Assembly: GCF_020991275.1 (NCBI RefSeq)
Contig: NZ_JAJLQY010000001.1
Coordinates: 868,001-932,000, forward strand
Origin: Actinocorallia sp. API 0066
GTDB taxonomy: Bacteria; Actinomycetota; Actinomycetes; Streptosporangiales; Streptosporangiaceae
Direction of reading: 5' to 3'
DNA: 64,000 nucleotides
The translations under genes were made by a program, and so were the position numbers. The notes under the pieces are model-generated. The model was not told the origin of the DNA. It saw nothing but the letters and a program-made list of their open reading frames with translations, and did not search any database. Each line of letters begins with the position of its first letter. Position 1 is the first letter of the stretch. Below, one piece after another: positions 38,447 through 50,081 of the stretch.

Positions 38447-38803
38447 ATGAACGCCAACCACGAACTGGGCCGGCGCGGTGAGGACGCGGCGGCCGCCTAC
38501 CTGCGGAGCCTCGGCTGGCGGGTGCTCGCCCGGAACTGGCGCTGCCCCGAGGGCGAACTCGACATCGTCGCGCACGACGGGCGCCGCCATGTCTTCTGCG
38601 AGGTCAAGACGCGCACCAGCGTCGCCTTCGGGCATCCCGCCGAGGCCGTCACACCGGCCAAGGCCCGCCGTTTAAGGCGTCTGGCACTGCGCTGGGCTCG
38701 GGAGCACGGGGTCAGGCCCGACCGGATCCGGATCGACCTGCTCGGCCTGATCGGCGGGCGCGGCCCCGGCTTCACCGTCGACCACCGGCGGGAGGTGGCG
38801 TGA
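38447..38803 (+). CDS. yraN: YraN family (UPF0102) putative endonuclease
   Basis: A 118-aa protein with a PD-(D/E)xK-like nuclease fold: ANHELGRRGEDAAAAYLRSL, GWRVLARNWRCPEGELDIVA and HVFCEVKTRTSVAFGHP give the E-x(n)-D-x(n)-ExK motif. The family sits beside comM and dprA and is thought to act on DNA, without proven function. ATG 38447 is chosen because GGAGGTGATC, a ten-base match to the anti-SD, ends just upstream; the in-frame GTG at 38438 lies inside that site. Its stop overlaps the comM start (TGATG). Confidence 0.92.
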   Translation: MNANHELGRRGEDAAAAYLRSLGWRVLARNWRCPEGELDIVAHDGRRHVFCEVKTRTSVAFGHPAEAVTPAKARRLRRLALRWAREHGVRPDRIRIDLLGLIGGRGPGFTVDHRREVA

Positions 38804-39834
38804 TGACGCTCGCCCGCACCCGGTCCACGGGGCTGGTCGGGGTCCGCGGGTACCTCGTCGACGTCGAGGCGGCGATCACCAGCGGCACCCCGGGCCTGCA
38901 CCTGGTCGGCCTGCCCGACACCGCGCTCAGCGAGGCCCGCGATCGCGTCCGCGCCGCGATCATGCACTCGGGCGAGGAATGGCCGGTCCGGCACGTCACC
39001 GTCGCGCTCGGCCCGGCCGGGCTGCCCAAGTCCGGCGCCTCGTTCGACGTGGCGATCGCGGTGGCGATCCTCGCCGCGGCCGGGGTGCTGCCCGCGTCCG
39101 TCTGCGCGGAGCCGGTGATGATCGGCGAACTCGGGCTCGACGGCGGGGTCCGTCCCGTGCCGGGCGTGCTGCCCGCCGTCCTCGGGGCCGCCGAGGCGGG
39201 GGTGCGCACGGTCGTGGTGCCGCGCGCGAACCGGCCGGAGGCGGAGCTCGTCCCCGGGATCAAGGTCGTCGCGGTCGGCACGCTGCGGGCGCTGCTGTGC
39301 GAGCTGCGCGGCGAGCCGCCGCCGCTGGAGCCCGAGCCGGACGATGAGCCGCCGAGGCCGCCGCTGCCCGGGGAGCCGTCACGCGGGCGGCGCGGCGCGC
39401 TCGACCTCGCCGACGTGCGGGGGCAGGCCGAGGCGCGGCGCGCGCTGGAGATCAGCGCGGCGGGCGGCCACCACCTGTTCCTCGCCGGCCCGCCCGGCTG
39501 CGGCAAGACCATGCTGGCCGAGCGGCTGCCCGGCCTGCTGCCCCCGCTGGACAGGCAGACGGCGCTGGAGGCCACCGCGATCCACTCGGTGGCGGGCACC
39601 CTGCCGCCCGGCCAGCCCCTCATCGACCGTGCCCCGTTCCACGCCCCGCACCACAGCGCGTCCCGCTCCGCCATCGTCGGCGGCGGTTCGGGCCGCCGGG
39701 TCCGCCCCGGCGCCGTCAGCCTCGCGCACGGCGGCGTGCTGTTCGTCGACGACCCCAGGGATCAAGTTTTACACACTGTGGGAGTCCTACAAGGTCACAG
39801 GCCCCGCATGGGCCCTGTGTATAGGTATGCATGA
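38803..39834 (+). pseudogene. comM: comM, 5' part (interrupted by integrative element)
   Basis: This is the N-terminal part of the ComM/YifB AAA+ helicase (Mg-chelatase-like), which promotes branch migration during natural transformation. The N-terminal Lon-protease-like domain (VDVEAAITSGTPGLHLVGLP, LPKSGASFDVAIAVAIL) and Walker A AGPPGCGKTMLAERLPGLLP are intact. Native sequence ends at the GACGA core (39748-39752), the Asp-Glu codons of Walker B (GVLFVDE); it then runs ~27 codons into the element and stops at 39832. Left plus right parts total 1,551 bp, exactly 517 codons in frame, so precise excision would restore a 516-aa protein. GGGAGGTGG precedes ATG 38803. Confidence 0.93.
39741..39774 (+). 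other. attL of the comM element
   Basis: This is chromosomal GTTCGTC, then the shared core GACGA (39748-39752), then the element arm CCAGGGATCAAGTTTTACAC (39755-39774). The arm is the inverted partner of the attR-side arm. The crossover is predicted at the GA of 39751-39752. Confidence 0.75.
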
Positions 39835-40311: not shown

Positions 40312-40530
40312 ATGGAGCTCGGAGAAATCATCGCGGGCGGTACATGTAGTGCCGGAGATGACGACTGCGCGAACAACGATTGCCCGACCGTCGCGCTTGT
40401 TCCGGGAGAGCCGGAAATGATTGACGTTCAGGGATATCACCAGCCGGGAATCTCAACCCCTCCGGGGGAGATTGTTGCCCGCATTCCCAAGTCAGTTCTC
40501 CTGGAGGCTGCCCGTGTTCTTGGCAGATGA
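40312..40530 (+). CDS. Small Cys-containing element protein (72 aa)
   Basis: A 72-aa protein MELGEIIAGGTCSAGDDDCA with three N-terminal Cys (residues 12, 19, 24) followed by CPTVALVPGEPEMIDVQGY and a C-terminal GEIVARIPKSVLLEAARVLG. I recognise the CPTV...VQGY...IPxxxLxEAAR layout from small actinobacterial proteins encoded with XRE/DUF5753 and DUF6879 genes; no function is known. GGGAGGCAGGT precedes ATG 40312. The next gene starts inside its end. Confidence 0.75.
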   Translation: MELGEIIAGGTCSAGDDDCANNDCPTVALVPGEPEMIDVQGYHQPGISTPPGEIVARIPKSVLLEAARVLGR

Positions 40531-41026
40531 TGAATGGCAAGAGTACTTCGGCACTTTCAAGCGCTATGCATGGCGCTTGGAACTTCACCCGGTCTACACG
40601 ATGCCGCATGAGGAAGAAGCCCTAGCACAGTTCAGGGAGGGCTACCGACTTCCCGAGGACTATGTATCGGGCTGGGCAAAAAAGGTGAGCAGCTACGTCG
40701 CTTCTGGCAGGTCGATTGGCAGGGTTCATATAGTACGCCAGCCCCTGTCGGAATACCTGCAATTTGAGTTCGATTACTACCGGGGCCATGCAAGAGCAGG
40801 CGAGGATATTCGGATTCTCGATCTGACCGGCAAGGACGATCCCGGATTGCCGGATCATGACTTCTACCTCTTCGATGATGAAGCAGTCGTGAGAATGCTC
40901 TACCGGCCCGATGGAACGCAGATCGGGCGGGAACTTGTAGAGAACCCAGACATTGAAAGCTACTTGCGTTACCGGGATATCGCCCTTGACGGGGCTATCC
41001 CCTTTAGGGAGTACTGGCAAGGCTAG
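40514..41026 (+). CDS. DUF6879 family protein
   Basis: A 170-aa acidic soluble protein. It opens VFLADDEWQEYFGTFKRYAW and contains SIGRVHIVRQPLSEYLQFEF, YRGHARAGEDIRILDL, and the characteristic LPDHDFYLFDDEAVVRMLY, ending AIPFREYWQG. This is the DUF6879 family, typically found beside an HTH/DUF5753 regulator in actinobacteria; its function is unknown. GTG 40514 has GGAGG at the right spacing inside the previous gene (17-bp overlap). It ends exactly where the regulator begins. Confidence 0.8.
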   Translation: MFLADDEWQEYFGTFKRYAWRLELHPVYTMPHEEEALAQFREGYRLPEDYVSGWAKKVSSYVASGRSIGRVHIVRQPLSEYLQFEFDYYRGHARAGEDIRILDLTGKDDPGLPDHDFYLFDDEAVVRMLYRPDGTQIGRELVENPDIESYLRYRDIALDGAIPFREYWQG

Positions 41027-41947
41027 GTGCTAGAACCAGAAGAACTAGGTCGAAACAGAGACGACCTAGCAAAGACACTACGAGAATTGCGCAAGGCGAA
41101 GGGTTGTACCGGCCAACGCCTTGCTTCTCTGTGTGCAATGAGCCAGAGCAAGATTTCGAAGATTGAAACGGGGAAGGCTGTACCCACAGCCGTTGATGTA
41201 GAGCGCATATTGCGGGCGCTAGACGCTCCGCAATCTGTCATTGAGGAAGTTACCGAACTAGCGAAGCTTGCCAATACCGAGTTTCAGGATGTCCGCTCTC
41301 TGTGGCGAAAGGGCCTGGAGAAGAAGCAGCATGAGCTAGTCGGTCTTGAAAAGACCTCGAAGGTCTTTCGTTTCTTCCTGCCAGTGATGATTACCGGCCT
41401 ACTGGCGACGCCGGAATATATCCGCGCAAGCCTTGCCCATGTTCCGGGGGATGCTTCTAAGGCGATAGCCAAGAAGCTAGAGCGTCAGGCAATCCTGTAT
41501 AACGCTTCTAAGAGCTTTACGTTCATCCTCACAGAGGCCGCTGTCAGGTGGGCGCTCTGCTCACCCCCGGAAATGGCTATGCAGATTGACCGGCTGGCCT
41601 CTCTGTCACTCATGGCGAATATCAGGATCGGCGTTATCCCTCTTGGTACTCAGTCCCACATGGGGCCTCTCAACACCTTCACCGTCTATGACTCTTCTCT
41701 GGCCACGGCTGAGAACTTCAATGGCGCGCTCATGATGCGCGACCCCAGGGACGTTGAGTTTCACCTCAACCTGTTCGCCCTCTATGAGGAGCTTGCCGTG
41801 TTCGGGGATGAAGCTAGAGGACATCTGAGCACATGGGCTACGGCCTACCGACAGGGCTCTTTATGCGAGTACGGGAATAATCCTGGCCTCTCAGCACAGC
41901 CCACCCGTAGCTTAGGGGCATGGAGAGAAAACACCTTGAGGAGCTGA
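41027..41947 (+). CDS. XRE-family regulator with DUF5753 domain
   Basis: A 306-aa protein. The N-terminal HTH_3/XRE domain is DLAKTLRELRKAKGCTGQRL, ASLCAMSQSKISKIETGKAV (residues ~13-52). The C-terminal DUF5753 region shows FRFFLPVMITGLLATPEYIR, ERQAILYNASKSFTFILTEA and MGPLNTFTVYDSS. Such regulators are very common in actinobacterial genomes and elements, usually with a DUF397 or DUF6879 partner. It starts at GTG 41027 right after the DUF6879 stop. It is the best candidate repressor or activator for the palindrome at 40218. Confidence 0.88.
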   Translation: MLEPEELGRNRDDLAKTLRELRKAKGCTGQRLASLCAMSQSKISKIETGKAVPTAVDVERILRALDAPQSVIEEVTELAKLANTEFQDVRSLWRKGLEKKQHELVGLEKTSKVFRFFLPVMITGLLATPEYIRASLAHVPGDASKAIAKKLERQAILYNASKSFTFILTEAAVRWALCSPPEMAMQIDRLASLSLMANIRIGVIPLGTQSHMGPLNTFTVYDSSLATAENFNGALMMRDPRDVEFHLNLFALYEELAVFGDEARGHLSTWATAYRQGSLCEYGNNPGLSAQPTRSLGAWRENTLRS

Positions 41948-42180
41948 GGAAGGCTCTTGAAGGCAAGGGCCTTGAGTCGGACCTCATCGAAGGTCCCAAC
42001 GTCGTATTCCTGAGGATTGGCCACAGGAACCCTGAGCAACGGCCAGAGGCTGTCACCTGCCGAGAGGCAGAAGGAGAGCTGTTCTTCGTCGGCTCTTTTG
42101 GCTCTCTCATTGCTCCGGTGCGGCATATTGAATCGGCAGCGGAGCGGATCGCTTATCTTGTGTCGCCTGGGAGGCTGTAG
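41920..42180 (+). CDS. Hypothetical element protein (86 aa)
   Basis: An 86-aa protein, MERKHLEELRKALEGKGLES, with AVTCREAEGELFFVGSFGSL and a C-terminal HIESAAERIAYLVSPGRL. I recognise no family. Composition is balanced and charge-rich, so it is likely real. ATG 41920 lies 28 bp inside the regulator gene. It could be a candidate recombination directionality factor on size alone; nothing else supports that. Confidence 0.55.
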   Translation: MERKHLEELRKALEGKGLESDLIEGPNVVFLRIGHRNPEQRPEAVTCREAEGELFFVGSFGSLIAPVRHIESAAERIAYLVSPGRL

Positions 42181-42182
42181 CC

Positions 42183-42419
42183 GTGATTCAGCTTGCCGAG
42201 AGGATCGCAGCGGGAAAGCAAGCAGCCCGAGAGCTTGAAGCTAAATGGCCGGGGTGGATCATCCTCTTCGGGGACTATCATCGTGTCTTCTGGGCCTGTG
42301 CGTGCTGGATACCCACGGAGGCAGTGAATATCACTGCCGAAAATCCCCAGGACCTAGAGCGGGTCATGAGAGCTGTAGAAGCCCGCCACCCTAAGCGGAT
42401 AGCTTGGGTGCGCCGATGA
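42183..42419 (+). CDS. Hypothetical element protein (78 aa)
   Basis: A 78-aa protein from GTG 42183: MIQLAERIAAGKQAARELEA, then WPGWIILFGDYHRVFWACAC and a C-terminal DLERVMRAVEARHPKRIAWV. The WPGW...W core resembles small proteins encoded behind XRE/DUF5753 genes in other actinobacteria; its role is unknown. Two bases separate it from the previous gene and it overlaps the next (ATGA). Confidence 0.55.
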   Translation: MIQLAERIAAGKQAARELEAKWPGWIILFGDYHRVFWACACWIPTEAVNITAENPQDLERVMRAVEARHPKRIAWVRR

Positions 42420-42694
42420 ATAAGCCAGACCTCGACAAGGCAGTGGAGAAGGCGAAGAAGTCGTTCTTTGACCTCTTTGGCCTCATGATGGCCTACGAGT
42501 TGGATTTCAAGATACTTACGCTCTTGCTCGAATGGCCTACGCCAGTAGCGGCGGCCTACAAGCAATGGGCAGCCGACACAAACGCGGTAGCGCGCATCCT
42601 CGCGGCCCGTGATGGTGTCGAGGATGGCGACAAGCTCTCTGAGGCAGACAGAGCCCGCTACACCGTGCGGGCCTGGGAGCTGATCGAGTCCTAG
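42416..42694 (+). CDS. Hypothetical element protein (92 aa)
   Basis: A 92-aa helical protein, MNKPDLDKAVEKAKKSFFDL, FGLMMAYELDFKILTLLLEW and a C-terminal DKLSEADRARYTVRAWELIE. No family is recognised. ATG 42416 overlaps the preceding stop as ATGA; an in-frame GTG at 42404 is possible. It is the last gene of the left-to-right operon, and the winged-helix gene converges on it from the right. Confidence 0.55.
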   Translation: MNKPDLDKAVEKAKKSFFDLFGLMMAYELDFKILTLLLEWPTPVAAAYKQWAADTNAVARILAARDGVEDGDKLSEADRARYTVRAWELIES

Positions 42695-42781: not shown

Positions 42782-43954
42782 CTAGGCGGCTTGAAGCCGC
42801 ACCATGCGGGTCATGTGCTTCTCCCAGCGTCGGCCTAGGTCGTCGGGCTCTCTGGCACGCCAGGAGAGAAAGGCAGTAGCCGCTTCAAACGCGGCAATCC
42901 TGGCTTCATCCTCTTCGGAAGTAGGGGCTATCGGCTCAGGCCGGTTGAAGATCTCAGGGAACCAGTCTTCACCCGACACAGCGAATGTGGAGGGCTGATC
43001 GCGCTTGGCCCAAAACTCTCTGTCGGCCTTGTATTCGGCCTCTCTGCGCTCTCGGGTACCGGAGACGCCCAAGCTCTCGGCAATACCGTCTAGCGCCTCC
43101 TGAGAGGCTTCTAGAACCCAGTACTTCACAGGCCGACCGTCGGCCTTCTCAGCTAGGCCGACCTCGACCAGCTTCTCTAGGGCAATGCGGCAGGCATTGT
43201 CACTGAGACCGGTCATCTCCCGTGCCTGTCTCACAGACACGTAAGCCTCACTCTGTAGGGCTACCCACAGACGGCCAGAGGTTGCCCCCAGGGCACCTCT
43301 GGTGAACACATCATGTGCCAGTACCTCAGTCTCTCTCTCACTAACGTTACATATAACCCCTACGGGGTAAAGGTCATATGTACCAGTAATGAGAGAAGGA
43401 GAGACAATCTCGTACTCAGGGGGAGATACCTTCTCCCCCTTCTTCTTGAGCCAACCCGCCTTATCTAGGCGGGTCCTAGCCCTACTCACTGCCATGGTGC
43501 TGAGCCCTGTCCGCAAAGACAGGGTTCGCACATCAAGCCTAGGTGTGTATATACCCCTCTCGATACCGATATCGAGGTAGGCAAACATGACAAGGCGTTC
43601 GGCGTTGCCGCCACGCCCAGCCCATTTATGGGCCTGTGCTAGCTCATATGTTTTCGACAGCCGATCCCGGATGTCCTCTGGTGTGGCCATCGGTGGGTGG
43701 TCTTCAACCCGCTTGAGAGCAGAGTGATACTTGTCCCTCAAGTACTTGCGTGCCTTGCTGTCTAGCCAACCGTTGGAAGCAATCCCGCCCCTATTGGCGG
43801 GATCGAGCATCTCGGTTTCGTAGACCTCATACGGGATGCCTGCATTGCAGAAGTGGATGGCTAGCCGGTAGTGCGTCGTGTCGGCTCTCTCGACACGTGT
43901 GTTCGTGCCGTCCCTCAGAAGCTCCCAGGCTTCTGGGCTGAGTCGTTCAAGCAT
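42782..43954 (-). CDS. Winged-helix protein, possible element replication/maintenance protein
   Basis: A 390-aa protein. The N-terminal part (THYRLAIHFCNAGIPYEVYE, DPANRGGIASNGWLDSKARK, YLRDKYHSALKRVEDHP) resembles the C-terminal helical region of plasmid/phage primase-type proteins. Two helix-turn-helix stretches follow: DVRTLSLRTGLSTMAVSRAR TRLDKAG (about 142-168) and SVRQAREMTGLSDNACRIAL EKLVEVGL (about 236-263). This layout fits a replication initiator-like or regulatory protein, but no catalytic motif is visible. ATG 43954 has GAGGGA upstream. It lies downstream of the integrase, behind a terminator, on the same strand. Confidence 0.6.
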   Translation of the reverse strand: MLERLSPEAWELLRDGTNTRVERADTTHYRLAIHFCNAGIPYEVYETEMLDPANRGGIASNGWLDSKARKYLRDKYHSALKRVEDHPPMATPEDIRDRLSKTYELAQAHKWAGRGGNAERLVMFAYLDIGIERGIYTPRLDVRTLSLRTGLSTMAVSRARTRLDKAGWLKKKGEKVSPPEYEIVSPSLITGTYDLYPVGVICNVSERETEVLAHDVFTRGALGATSGRLWVALQSEAYVSVRQAREMTGLSDNACRIALEKLVEVGLAEKADGRPVKYWVLEASQEALDGIAESLGVSGTRERREAEYKADREFWAKRDQPSTFAVSGEDWFPEIFNRPEPIAPTSEEDEARIAAFEAATAFLSWRAREPDDLGRRWEKHMTRMVRLQAA

Positions 43955-44033: not shown

Positions 44034-45707
44034 CTAGGCGGCCTGGGGTTGTGTGGCGAGACCGTAGATGCGGCTCAGGTCGCCGAACCTGGCGGCGAAT
44101 GCGGGCTCTGCCTTACGTGCGTTGTCCTCAGGCGTGATGTCGCACAGATGCACAGTCTTCCCGAGGAAGGAAGTCGAGACGGCGAACGTAGCGCCGCTAG
44201 AGATCTCCTCAAAGTTGGGTGTGTCTTCCTCAACGATGACCTTTCCGGGCCATCGCAGAACTCGGATCTCGATTCCGGCTTGCCGGTAAAAGCTGCCCTT
44301 CTCCCATTCGCTCAAGCCAGCCCAGAAGTCGGCGAATGTTTCGCCTGTGCTGATGATTTCTGTGCGGCTCGGAACTTGGGGGAGCGCTTCAAGCTTGATG
44401 CGCTGTTCTGCAAGCTTCTGGATTCGTGCGCTGTACTCCTCAGCGCCTCCGGAGTATCTGTAGTCCCCCCGGTCCTTCTCTGCTCGGACTTCGTCCATGG
44501 TCTGGCGGATCTGCTCAAGGCGTTCGGTGTGGTCCTCGCCCTTGATAAAGACGGTCGTCTTGCGCTCAAGCTTGCCGAACATTCCCAAGAGAAGGGTCTC
44601 TAGCGCGTTCTCAAGGTAGTCGGCCTTGACCGAAGCATTGCCACACTTCGCGGAGGTCGCACCGACCGACGAGCATCGGTAATACATGCTCCTGCTCTTG
44701 GTGCGGTACATGGCCGCGCCGCATACTGCGCAGAAAGCCACCTGGCGAAGGGGGGCACCTCCGGTCCTGTGGTGAGTCTTGCCGGAGCTGTTCTTGCTGA
44801 GCTGCTCCTGTAGGGCGTCCCATTCCTGCTTGGTGATGAGGGGTTCGGCACGCTGAATCGGCATACCGTCGTCACCGACGATTACCTTGCGGGGAATCTT
44901 TTTCTTTGCTCCGGTCTCGTCTACCTCATCCCTGACGTACTCGGACCCTTCGGCTTCGTACTGGCCAAGCAGTGCCTTGGACTTGAGCATCTTTAGGAGG
45001 TTGCCTACGCGCCAGAGGCCACCCTTGGGTTCCTTGCCCTGACGAATTCTCTGGGCATCGCTTGAGACTGGAATCTTGCGTTCGTTGAGGTCCCGCACGA
45101 TCGAGTTTGCAGACTCACCCTTGAGCATGCGCGAAATGATGTCGCGCATGACCGCTGCTGTTTCGGGGTCGTGCTCAAGCTCCCAGTGGTCTACAGCCTT
45201 GACGGCCCTGTACCCGTAGGGGACGTTGCCACCACGCCAGTTACCGGCCTTGATATTGCGGTCGTACGCGTCCCTCACACGCTCTTTGATGACCTCGCCT
45301 TCATACTCAGCGAAGGCGGCAAGGACCATGGCAACCATGCGCCCCGCTGGCGTGCCGAGATCGAACGACTCTTCAACAGTGACAATCCGGATCTTGTGCT
45401 TCTTGGCCCACTCCAGGAGGTCGCAGAAGTCCTTCATCTTTCGGGAGAGGCGATCAAGCTTCCACGCAACGATGACGTCATAGTCATCGGGCCGGTTCAG
45501 CCATTCCCTGAATTCTGGCCTCTCCCAGGGGCCTGCTGTGATGGCAGAGACATCAAGGTCTTCCGCGATGCCGATCACATCGGCGTCGTGCAGGTCAGCC
45601 CATTTGCTGATCTTGTTCTTCTGGCGCTCAGGGCTAGAGGTGGTGTCGGTCAGGTTGGAGAGTCGGACGACTCCCAGGACACGCGGACGCCTGGTCGGCT
45701 TGCTCAT
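44034..45707 (-). CDS. Large serine recombinase (integrase)
   Basis: A 557-aa site-specific recombinase. The N-terminal resolvase domain has LGVVRLSNLTDTTSSPERQ, with the nucleophilic Ser in the TSSPERQ region, and IVAWKLDRLSRKMKDF. The Recombinase domain (NVPYGYRAVKAVDHWELEHD onward) is followed by a zinc ribbon CAVCGAAMYRTKSRSMYYRC ...KCGN (about 327-360) and a coiled coil (QIRQTMDEVRAEKDRGDYRY). It catalyses attP x attB integration into comM and, with a directionality factor, excision. GGGAG stands 6 nt before ATG 45707. It lies 156 bp from attR, the usual integrase-att arrangement. Confidence 0.96.
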   Translation of the reverse strand: MSKPTRRPRVLGVVRLSNLTDTTSSPERQKNKISKWADLHDADVIGIAEDLDVSAITAGPWERPEFREWLNRPDDYDVIVAWKLDRLSRKMKDFCDLLEWAKKHKIRIVTVEESFDLGTPAGRMVAMVLAAFAEYEGEVIKERVRDAYDRNIKAGNWRGGNVPYGYRAVKAVDHWELEHDPETAAVMRDIISRMLKGESANSIVRDLNERKIPVSSDAQRIRQGKEPKGGLWRVGNLLKMLKSKALLGQYEAEGSEYVRDEVDETGAKKKIPRKVIVGDDGMPIQRAEPLITKQEWDALQEQLSKNSSGKTHHRTGGAPLRQVAFCAVCGAAMYRTKSRSMYYRCSSVGATSAKCGNASVKADYLENALETLLLGMFGKLERKTTVFIKGEDHTERLEQIRQTMDEVRAEKDRGDYRYSGGAEEYSARIQKLAEQRIKLEALPQVPSRTEIISTGETFADFWAGLSEWEKGSFYRQAGIEIRVLRWPGKVIVEEDTPNFEEISSGATFAVSTSFLGKTVHLCDITPEDNARKAEPAFAARFGDLSRIYGLATQPQAA

Positions 45708-45741: not shown

Positions 45742-45788
45742 CAGTCAGTGAGCGGGACCCCGAAGGGTCTCGGCGCTCAAAATGACTG
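45742..45788. other. Long interrupted hairpin upstream of the integrase
   Basis: CAGTCA, GAGCG, GGACCC pair in order with GGGTCT, CGCTC, TGACTG around a CGAA loop, giving 17 pairs (one G-U) with small internal loops. It lies between the integrase start and attR and could insulate the integrase promoter from comM-directed transcription. Confidence 0.55.
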
Positions 45789-45843
45789 GGGTGGACTCAC
45801 CAAGCAGGGTGCGTTTGCCCTGCTCAGAGGCCCAGAGGGCTTG

Positions 45844-45875
45844 GTGTAACTCTGGCTCCCTGGACGAAGCACCCG
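45844..45875 (+). other. attR of the comM element
   Basis: The element arm GTGTAACTCTGGCTCCCTGG (45844-45863) ends at the core GACGA (45863-45867), followed by comM AGCACCCG. Joined to the left arm it recreates an attP dyad with 16 of 20 positions symmetric around ACGACC. Confidence 0.75.
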
Positions 45876-46468
45876 AGTTCGCTCTCGGGGTGCTGGATTC
45901 GATGCGCCAGCCGATGGAGCAGGGCGAGGTCAGCATCGACCGCACCGAGGTCACGATCCGTTTTCCGGCCCTGTTCACCCTGGTCATGGCCGCCAACCCC
46001 TGTCCCTGCGCCGCAGCGAAGGTGATCCAATGCCGCTGTTCTCCCGCCGTCCGGGCCCGCTACCTGTCCCGGATCTCCGGCCCGCTCCTCGACCGCGTCG
46101 ATCTCAAGCTCTCGCTGGCTCCGGCCACCCGCGCCGAACTCCGCTACGACCTGGAGAACGCCGAGTCCACCGCCGAGGTGGCGGCCCGCGTCCTGGAGGC
46201 GCGCGAACGCTCCCTGAAACGTATGGCCGGCCTGCCCTGGCGCAGCAACAGCGAGGTCCCCGGCCCGGAACTCCGCCGCCTCTTCCCCCCGCCCCCCGAG
46301 TCCCTCCTCCCCCTGGAAGCCGCCCTCCAGTCCGGCACCCTCAGCGCCCGAGGCATGGACCGAGCCCTCCGCACCGCCTGGACCCTCGCCGACCTCTCCT
46401 CCCGAGACACCCCCGCCCCCTGGGACACCGCCGAAGCCCTAGCCCTATGGCAAGGCCACCCCACCTAA
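45868..46468 (+). pseudogene. comM: comM, 3' part
   Basis: Native comM resumes at AGCACCCGAG (APEFALGVLDSMRQPMEQGE) right after the core and runs uninterrupted to the stop at 46468. It keeps the segments after Walker B: VMAANPCPCAAA (sensor region with the Cys cluster CPC...CRC), YLSRISGPLLDRVDLKL (Arg finger region) and the C-terminal helical domain. An ATG inside the element at 45782 is in frame with it and would add about 27 element-encoded residues before Walker B DEAPEF, so a C-terminal polypeptide could be made. Without Walker A it cannot bind ATP alone. Confidence 0.92.
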
Positions 46469-46983: not shown

Positions 46984-47163
46984 GCCAACGGTGCCCCCGG
47001 CTCACCGAGCGGATCACGGTCCGCCGAGGCCCGTTCACTCGGCCGCCTTCGGTCCCGGCGCTACAACTCGAACGACGCGGCCCCGGCCGCCGAGCCCACC
47101 AGCCGATGAGCCTCCTCGGGCGACGTGCCATTCAGCAGAGCCACGACCTGTCGTCAAGGACGC

Positions 47164-47343
47164 GGGCGGCTACTGCCTGAGGGCACGGGCTGGGCGGCAC
47201 GTCGGCCGGTGGCCCGGCGCCTTCGGGGGCGCGGCCAGACGGTGCGCGTGGTCGGGCGGCTACTGGCTGAGGGCGCGGGCTGGGCGGCACGTCGGTCGGT
47301 GGCCCGGCGCCTTCGGGGACGTGGCCAGACGGTGCGCGTGGTC
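47164..47343. repeat. 90-bp tandem duplication
   Basis: The unit beginning GGGCGGCTACTG (47164-47253) is repeated at 47254-47343 with about five substitutions, and a partial third copy (TCGGTGGCCCGGCGCCTTCG) appears near 47500. The 90-bp period is a multiple of three, so frames stay open through it, but substitutions do not favour any one frame. Confidence 0.8.
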
Positions 47344-48051
47344 GGGCGGTTGCTTCCGAAGGGCCGGGCACAGGCCCTGGATGTGGGCAGAAGGCCGCGG
47401 CTCGGCGTGGGTGGCCTCTGTGCGCTGTCTCGGAGGACGGCGCGGATTGCTGGACTTGTCCAGGGTGCTGCTGCGGGACGTGGGCTGGGCGACTTCGTCG
47501 GTCGGTGGCCCGGCGCCTTCGGGGACGTGGCCAGACGGGGTGTGTGGCTGGGCTGGCAGGTCGCGGAGCGGCTGGCCCAGGTGCGGCGTCGGGTGGTCGG
47601 GCGTCGCGGCGCGCGTGGTCGGGCAGCATGGCCTGGGCGCCGCGACCGGGGGACGCGCCTCGGGCGGTGTGGTTGCTCGGCGACATTGTGGTGTCGGGGG
47701 CACGGCTCGGCTGGGGCGGCGTTCGGCTCGGGGGGCGTGGTGCTGGTCGCTGGGATCGCTCGGCGGTGGTCTGGTCTTCGGGGCGCGCTTGTCTGGCGAG
47801 GGCTTGGCGTGGTGTTGGGCGAGCGGGGCGGGCGGCTACTCGGGCCGCGATGGCACCGCGCCAGCGGGACGTGATCGGGGCGGGTGGTCGGATCGTGGGC
47901 GGGTCACGGCTCGTCTGGTCGGGGCCTTGCTGTACGGCCTTGGGTGTGACGTTGGGGCTTTTTGGGAGGGGTGGTGCTGCGGGGGTGTGGGGGCGGTAGG
48001 TGGGGTCGGGGCTTACGGGATTTATGGGACTTGCGGGAGGAGTGGGAACTG

Positions 48052-49218: not shown

Positions 49219-49256
49219 CCCCACCACCCACCCCCTGACCCCACCCACCAACCAGC

Positions 49257-49456
49257 GCCCGCCCCGGGCCTACCGGCCTGCGCCCGCCCTGGGCCCACCG
49301 GCCTGTGCCCGCGCTGGGCTTACTGGCCTGTGCCCGCGCTGGGCTTACTGGCCTGTGCCTGCGCTGGGTCTACCGGCCTGTGCCCGCGGCGGGCTTGCTG
49401 GCCTGTGCCTGCGCTGGGTCTACCGGTCAGTGCCCGCGCTGGGTTTGCCGGTCAGT
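49257..49456. repeat. Eight-copy 25-bp minisatellite
   Basis: Eight contiguous 25-bp units, consensus GCCCGCGCTGGGCTTACTGG + CCTGT, run from 49257 to 49456 with no spacers. Units 3 and 4 are identical; outer units carry substitutions, and the last two end CAGT instead of CTGT. Each unit has a small dyad GCCC-GCGCT-GGGC. It lies between the convergent dprA and M23 genes, overlapping the 3' end of the latter by 5 bp. Confidence 0.92.
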
Positions 49457-50081
49457 GGGGTTCTTGGGCGGGTGGGGGTGGGGTTGGGGTGGGGAGGAGG
49501 ATGACGGGGGGTGGGGTGGGGAGGAGGCGGGGGTCCAGGTAGGTGGGGGTGGGGGGCTGGTTGAGGAGGAGGCCCCAGTGGAGGCAGGGGGTGGGTGGGC
49601 AGTGGGTGGGGGCGGGGGAGAGGAGGGCGATGGGGTGGTTGGCGGGGACGGTGGTGCCTTTTGGGAGGAGGGGGGTGACGGGTTCGTAGGTGGTTCGGTA
49701 GGGGCCGTGGGTGAGGGTGAGGACGCCTCGGGTGGCTACCGGGCTGGCGTGGGTGATGGTGCCTGGGGCGGGAGAGAGGATTACGGAGCCTGCGGGGGCT
49801 TGGAGGTCGATGCCTCGGTGGCCCGGGAGCCAGTCGACATCGGGTGGGGCGAAGGGGCGGGCGATCTTGAACGGGGGATCGAGCGGCCAGCGGGCTGGCG
49901 AAGGGAGAGGAGGGAAGCCGGGGGCGGCTTCGGCCCTTGAGGTGGAGGTGAGTGCGGCTTGCGGAGGGGTGGGGAGGGCTTGGGTGAGATGGGCGATTGC
50001 TGAGTGGGGAGTGGGCTTGGGAGGGAAGGGGGTGGTGGCTTGGAGGGAGAGGAGGATGAGGATGAGGTGGGTTGTGGTCAT
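49452..50081 (-). CDS. Secreted M23-family metallopeptidase
   Basis: A 209-aa exported LytM-type protein. A short signal-like N-terminus ([19 protein letters not shown]) precedes a Pro/Ala-rich linker and the M23 domain (about 75-170): [20 protein letters not shown] has the HxxxD zinc ligands, and PCLHWGLLL has the third zinc His. At the catalytic HxH motif the first His is Cys (CLH), so activity may be altered or lost. It ends in a Pro-rich tail. A family member opposite rpsB is conserved in actinobacteria. Base composition is extreme, the coding strand being nearly C-only in places. It diverges from rpsB. Confidence 0.82.
49465..49570 (+). other. G-quadruplex-prone tract
   Basis: The + strand carries repeated G-runs, for example GGGCGGGTGGGGGTGGGG then GGTTGGGGTGGGG, and again near 49506-49530 and 49550-49570. 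They satisfy four-run G4 rules several times. This is the template strand of the M23 gene. Confidence 0.6.

Follow-up and report, generated by a model that had tools for sequence, protein, structure and literature searches.

The comM gene of Actinocorallia sp. API 0066 is interrupted within the Walker B motif by an element of about 6 kb (6,115 bp) that encodes a large serine recombinase (LSR) of 557 amino acids. Coordinates refer to the window, the stretch of 64,000 nucleotides that was analyzed; in the survey described below this genome is G000. In the explanation that we favor, the attP site of the element recombined with an attB site formed by the Walker B Asp-Glu codons of the only comM gene of the host, with the crossover at GA, bases 1 and 2 of the Glu317 codon. 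This codon pair would have been reached independently by several LSR lineages and by other recombinases, and ComM is split. We assign this explanation as a whole a probability of about 0.9.

Serine integrases recombine attP with attB without host factors, and excision needs a directionality factor. The DNA arms of LSR sites tolerate many substitutions, whereas the two central bases must match exactly. Two central bases on positions 1 and 2 of the codon for an invariant catalytic residue would give a site that remains matched in all hosts, regardless of codon preference. Unrelated elements apparently recur at one spot because the two exact-match letters cannot change without breaking the protein.

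The element and its junctions

Joining the flanks without the element restores a single open frame of 516 amino acids, in which Walker A lies at residue 229 and GVLFVDEAPEF occupies residues 311-321. The 5′ part of comM (38803-39752, plus strand) runs from codon 1 to the first two bases of codon 317, includes the Walker A sequence GPPGCGKT and ends in G-V-L-F-V-D. The 3′ part (45866-46468, plus strand) starts at Glu317 with E-A-P-E-F, includes the stop codon and is readable from an ATG at 45782 as a 228-aa fusion. The split point is thus exactly at the Asp316-Glu317 codons, and the restored frame confirms the earlier note, which had placed the insertion in the Walker B Asp-Glu codons of an AAA+ ATPase. 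The core common to both junctions is GACGA, i.e., the Asp316 codon and the first two bases of Glu317, present in attL at 39748-39752 and in attR at 45863-45867. The protein has the domains of the ComM/YifB family: a ChlI-type N-terminal domain (PF13541), Mg_chelatase (PF01078) in two pieces covering profile positions 1-114 and 112-205, and Mg_chelatase_C (PF13335). The Mg_chelatase domain is broken at profile position 112-114 of 207. A search of the host genome with the N-terminal half found no second comM, only two other places that match at 34-36% identity, limited to residues 13-166 and 73-144.

The LSR gene (44034-45707, minus strand) adjoins the right junction and starts 156 bp from the attR core. 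Its product combines an N-terminal Resolvase catalytic domain (PF00239, 1.2e-29), a Recombinase domain (PF07508, 1.3e-15) and a zinc ribbon (Zn_ribbon_recom, PF13408, 2e-10) in one long protein, as expected for the LSR class. Its gene also lies beside an attP that forms an imperfect inverted repeat around a dinucleotide in common with attB. The integrase-distal arm of attP, identified by sequence comparison, is at 39753-39790, and the integrase-proximal arm (GGTGTAA...) is at 45823-45862.

On the plus strand between these arms lie genes for a 72-aa protein (40312-40530), a DUF6879 protein (40514-41026; PF21806, 1.4e-52), a helix-turn-helix regulator with DUF5753 (41027-41947), and proteins of 86 (41920-42180), 78 (42183-42419) and 96 aa (42404-42694). 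They are followed on the minus strand by a gene for a winged-helix protein of 390 aa (42782-43954). The four small proteins gave no Pfam match; the 86-aa protein has a 31% identical counterpart in the G157 element discussed below. A scan of eight element proteins revealed neither a tyrosine recombinase nor a transposase, which separates the element from the Tn6022/Tsy (TnsF) group, and no structural, packaging, relaxase or transfer gene that would indicate a prophage or conjugative element. Neither was a directionality factor recognized among these eight by Pfam.

The crossover dinucleotide

To locate the crossover, the element ends were joined to give attP, which was examined for dyad symmetry. 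The best centre was GACG|A, with 17 of 30 arm positions matched against 13 for the next centre; 38 of 2000 shuffled sequences reached 17/30 at any centre. Because this dyad is centred between G and A, the sequence places the crossover at GA 39751-39752, with which the Glu317 codon starts, and not at the whole of GACGA. A test in the reading frame gave the same answer, GA of Glu317 scoring 16/26 and the next common dinucleotide 12. The core GACGA(A) proposed earlier is therefore right as the common stretch, but only its last two bases are the crossover. Symmetry of the comM sequence itself was rejected as the determinant, since the best attB centre is at the start of GAC, 4 bases off the attP centre.

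Among integrases that use this site, the closest to that of G000 (54% identity) is found in genome G157 (L097; G157:C1:5095501-5105000). Its element is homologous and of about 6 kb, and also uses GA of Glu317, but lies in comM in the opposite orientation. The 72-aa protein, the DUF6879 protein and the regulator are 46, 47 and 58% identical between the two elements. The attP arms of the G157 element have the same position relative to the integrase as in G000, the distal arms sharing TTTACACACTGTGGGA, while the core is inverted. Since the central dinucleotide of an LSR sets the orientation of insertion, arms in place with an inverted core and a reversed element are what is expected. The pair is a natural case of an inverted attP core accompanied by an oppositely oriented element.

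Conservation of the attachment site

Conservation was examined in an alignment of 55 of the 56 fetched comM loci, all near full length (L061 was left out because it is short); these are the best-scoring matches and are biased toward near kin. Residues D316 and E317 are invariant in all 55. The Asp316 codon is GAC in 49 and GAT in 6, and the Glu317 codon starts with GA in every locus. The surrounding 40-bp site has an identity to this strain of 0.735, rank 282 of 1500 windows (median 0.672, maximum 0.860 at Walker A). By consensus conservation it is at the 84.6th percentile within comM, and its central 20 bp are at the 98.2nd. Overall, conservation of the 40-bp site is moderate (81st-85th percentile) and is exceeded by Walker A and by the regions from codons 255 and 34. 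The attB of the G157 integrase matches that of G000 at only 25 of 42 bases.

The earlier note had also held that the site is preserved in nearly every actinobacterium, and had suggested a comM nucleotide alignment as the check, with poor conservation of the 40-bp site counting against it. In the 55 aligned loci the claim holds for the Asp and Glu codons, and the result for the 40-bp stretch speaks against it.

comM insertions across the class

We searched 383 different genomes of the class (samples of 140 and 138 with 10 in common, then 13 and 102 new genomes) and found at least 23 comM insertions in 22 genomes. These counts are lower bounds, as partial or interrupted copies were left out when they lay at a contig end or when no second half was located (e.g., G003, G025, G030, G047, G107, G108, G113, G163, G212, G310 and G350). 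At least 10 insertions are at codons 315-317 (G000, G056, G110, G157, G204, G261, G268, G312, G340 and G370), at least seven at codon 83 (G005, G149, G160, G328, G331, G334 and G381; the position in G331 derives solely from match coordinates on two contigs) and at least two at codon 309 (G083 and G154). Single insertions are at codons 221 (G318), 232 (G340, the second element of that gene), 358 (G372) and about 490 (G061). Walker A, despite its better conservation, has a single insertion among those counted. Repeating the search in a Streptomycetaceae-like sample around G110 (the 102 new genomes) added ten insertions, of which three are at Walker B and four at codon 83; none was found in the 13 new genomes around G268.

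Two arrangements deserve description. G340 (L131, L132; G340:C24:63501-87500) has two elements in one comM gene, an LSR element at GG of Gly232 in Walker A and another at GA of Glu317. In G268 (L103, L104), comM halves with matching att junctions lie on one strand, separated by about 229 kb, which reflects either an insert of very large size or a subsequent rearrangement.

Different recombinases at the same codon pair

Of eight elements tested, six (G000, G157, G204, G268, G370 and the Walker B element of G340, termed G340b) have their best dyad centre, out of 53, on GA of Glu317. The scores out of 30 were 17, 13, 15, 19, 18 and 16, respectively, and were equaled by 38, 1209, 721, 2, 17 and 110 of 2000 shuffles. 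The dyads of G157 and G204 are thus weak when taken singly, although both peak at offset 0. The two remaining elements differ: G261 is centred on AT of codon 315 (14/30), and G056, a remnant without a recombinase gene, lacks a GA dyad (8/30), its halves having just GA in common.

The six elements with the identical GA belong to two LSR lineages, and the recombinase of G000 is only about 23% identical to those of G204 and G268 over 270-320 aligned residues. A single clade of Walker B LSRs was rejected both in a tree of 20 rows with five of them (p-AU 2.7e-44) and in a tree of 33 rows with seven (p-AU 0.0057), where at least four changes are needed. Since the LSRs in the trees were partly picked for sitting in comM, the trees demonstrate non-monophyly and not the frequency of target change. 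The label of another target means only that no comM lay within about 1.5 kb; 12 rows with this label were taken for the larger tree, of which ten were long enough to enter.

The G110 and G312 elements (L100, L130) join comM at the neighboring Asp316 codon and carry a pair of tyrosine recombinases, of 397 aa and 860-870 aa in a row, and have inverted end arms on either side of a 6-bp spacer. In all, Walker B is used by at least three LSR lineages and this tyrosine-recombinase pair. Tree and domain content show that several LSR lineages and other recombinases arrived at this codon pair independently.

Relatives of the G000 LSR also occur outside comM: in G006 and G043 the elements are in other genes and comM is intact. 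The G043 insertion (L155, L035) splits an aldo/keto reductase gene, and immediately inside the junction lies an intact copy with 87% identity to the split gene, which might be a replacement supplied by the element.

Codon phase of the crossover

For phase scoring, the dinucleotide had to be common to the N and C sides in register with the gene, and the best attP dyad was taken. The set comprised 15 valid LSR cases of 21 rows, the window and two non-comM insertions, 18 in total. Outside it were G056 (no recombinase), G110, G312 and G318 (tyrosine-type), G372 (type unassigned), and G061 and G331, which have no usable second junction. In all 18 insertions, which represent seven sites in three genes, codon positions 1 and 2 hold the best crossover, mostly in codons for invariant residues. 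In comM these are GA of E317 (six, including the window), CT of codon 83 (six), CA of H309 (two), GG of G232 (one) and AT of codon 315 (one, G261). Relative to the top candidate in any other phase, the margin was 2 in G157 and G261 and 4 or more in the other 16 insertions. Both non-comM insertions, scored as a test, agreed. In the aldo/keto reductase gene of G043 the centre is AC of a Thr codon (18/26, against 5 in the best other phase), and in an epimerase-like gene of G006 it is TC of a Ser codon (20/26, against 11).

Dinucleotides that are at least 95% conserved in comM make up 25% of those on codon positions 1-2, and 1.9 and 0.8% of those in the other phases. Those at E317, H309 and G232 are 100% conserved, against 80% at codon 83 and 22% for AT at codon 315. 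It seems that LSR crossovers keep their two exact-match bases away from the wobble position. A crossover on positions 1 and 2 cannot be unmatched by a synonymous change, and only rarely can with six-codon amino acids. We lean toward a codon-phase rule for LSRs that insert in coding genes, by which the crossover dinucleotide falls on positions 1-2, usually of an invariant residue, with Walker B being reached repeatedly because a suitable dinucleotide lies within its strongly conserved 20-bp core.

That this pattern is due to chance appears improbable, although several observations speak for it. There are only seven sites in three genes, which under equal phases corresponds to about 1 in 2187, and sites that share a gene or LSR clade are not fully independent. 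The idea arose after the Walker B and codon-309 junctions had been viewed, and the margin is small for G157 and G261. Moreover, the best, though poor, centres of two unscored elements are in other phases. The G056 remnant is centred on positions 3-1 (10/26, with 7/26 for GA of E317), and G372 on TG at positions 2-3 (11/26 against 10 and 9). No LSR was present in the pieces of G372 that were examined, and the two proteins scanned gave no Pfam match; if it is an LSR element, it is a counter-case to the rule. G318, considered as another counter-example, was dismissed because it carries a tyrosine integrase. Against chance stand the margins of at least 4 in the other 16 insertions and the fit of G006 and G043, which were scored after the idea had been noted, with one junction of each known earlier.

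If the rule is true, attB sites, their phase and host range could become predictable for thousands of unmapped LSRs. If it is general, it would aid in locating attB, which is hard to call for serine integrases, and in choosing integration sites for a broad range of hosts.

Consequences for ComM

The N-terminal half retains D316 and continues V-D-D-P, and the C-terminal half reads S-L-D-E-A-P-E-F across the junction, because attP supplies CTG ahead of GACGA and L-D-E is thereby regained. The earlier description, complete inactivation with Walker A only in the N-terminal part and Walker B only in the other, is therefore inexact as to the motifs. Loss of ComM function is nonetheless very likely, since the protein is in two pieces. 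The split would remove the ATPase, presumably lowering the recombination of heterologous transforming DNA for as long as the element stays in place, and the element may gain an advantage from this. Excision with a directionality factor would restore comM. The host genome retains a ComEC-family gene, so part of the uptake machinery may exist.

Two sets of repeats were observed downstream of comM. Two adjoining 90-bp copies, 94% identical, lie at 47163-47342, with a third copy (60%) at 47459, and a tandem array with a 25-bp period lies at 49252-49476, downstream of a gene that we take to be DprA-like.

Alternative explanations

The choice of site could have other causes. The Walker B codons might be used simply as the longest stretch of conserved DNA in comM, as the earlier note saw it, and the high rank of the central 20 bp agrees with this. 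We consider it unlikely, since several 40-bp regions of the gene are better conserved, Walker A among them, and since seven insertions are at codon 83, where conservation of the 40-bp window (centred on codon 84) reaches no more than the 58th percentile. The modest rank of the 40-bp attB and the single hit in the better conserved Walker A also count against our own explanation, as do the AT centre of G261, the missing GA dyad of the G056 remnant and the weakness of the G157 and G204 dyads taken singly. Descent from one ancestral Walker B LSR that spread and diverged, so that recurrence reflects inheritance and not convergence, would account for the kin pairs G000/G157, G370/G340b and G204/G268. 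It is very improbable as a general account, because LSRs with other targets stand between the Walker B LSRs in the trees, which reject a single clade, and because the tyrosine-recombinase elements of G110 and G312 join at the adjacent codon.

A more serious contender, to which we give slightly less than even odds, is selection on the effect: elements that break comM would be kept for blocking their own removal by natural transformation, and any inactivating site would do. This was proposed for Acinetobacter comM in a 2024 study that discusses comM inactivation as a means by which elements reduce transformation (PMC11472951), and it fits the enrichment of competence genes among LSR targets (PMC10083194), the retained ComEC-family gene and the spread of insertions over codons 83, 221, 232, 309, 315-317, 358 and about 490. 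It leaves unexplained why 10 of the 23 counted insertions are in three codons, and why six of the LSR elements have GA in common. Selection on the effect is, however, compatible with recombination at GA of Glu317 as the basis of site choice, and the two do not exclude each other.

Comparison with known systems

The closest relative of the whole LSR with a solved structure is PDB 9iu2, a 500-aa molecule named 'Integrase' (residues 9-479, E 1.9e-64). The phiC31 integrase is likewise an LSR that breaks a coding gene, although the gene is different and the LSR distant. If TT is taken as the core of the phiC31 attB, it corresponds to AA of a Lys codon, positions 1-2, in four Streptomycetaceae pirin genes (L169-L172) of eight pirin loci searched with a loose pattern. 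The target is the pirin homologue SCO3798, and in pseudo-attB sites of phiBT1 the core dinucleotide alone is fully conserved (PMC5937489).

The layout of the G110 and G312 elements looks like that of Tsy or Tn554. Literature searches for chelatase or YifB together with serine integrases found no paper, and two mycobacterial prophage papers do not mention comM or chelatase in their main text. Searches of the main text of open-licence papers yielded no publication on the GA step common to LSRs or on the codon-phase pattern, and the latter may be new.

That comM is a favorite LSR target and that Walker B is a transposon anchor is already published (Durrant et al., 2022; Faure et al., 2023). In the LSR survey, 12.4% of the predicted site-specific integrases targeted a comM-type gene, and competence genes were enriched; the gene is the same as here, and the part of that paper used here does not state the position within the gene or the codon phase (PMC10083194). 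AjTn6022 and ZooTsy are directed to the comM Walker B by TnsF, as tested in E. coli, with a 10-bp region being required, and the idea of Walker B as a natural conserved anchor stems from that work (PMC10293859). Whereas Tn6022 and Tsy combine a Tn7-like transposase or tyrosine recombinases with the TnsF selector, the element described here uses an LSR in an actinobacterium. The present results tie the two published facts to one base-pair step in Actinomycetes that is used by unrelated recombinases, and offer a testable reason for it, namely that the exact-match bases are placed where the genetic code forbids silent change.
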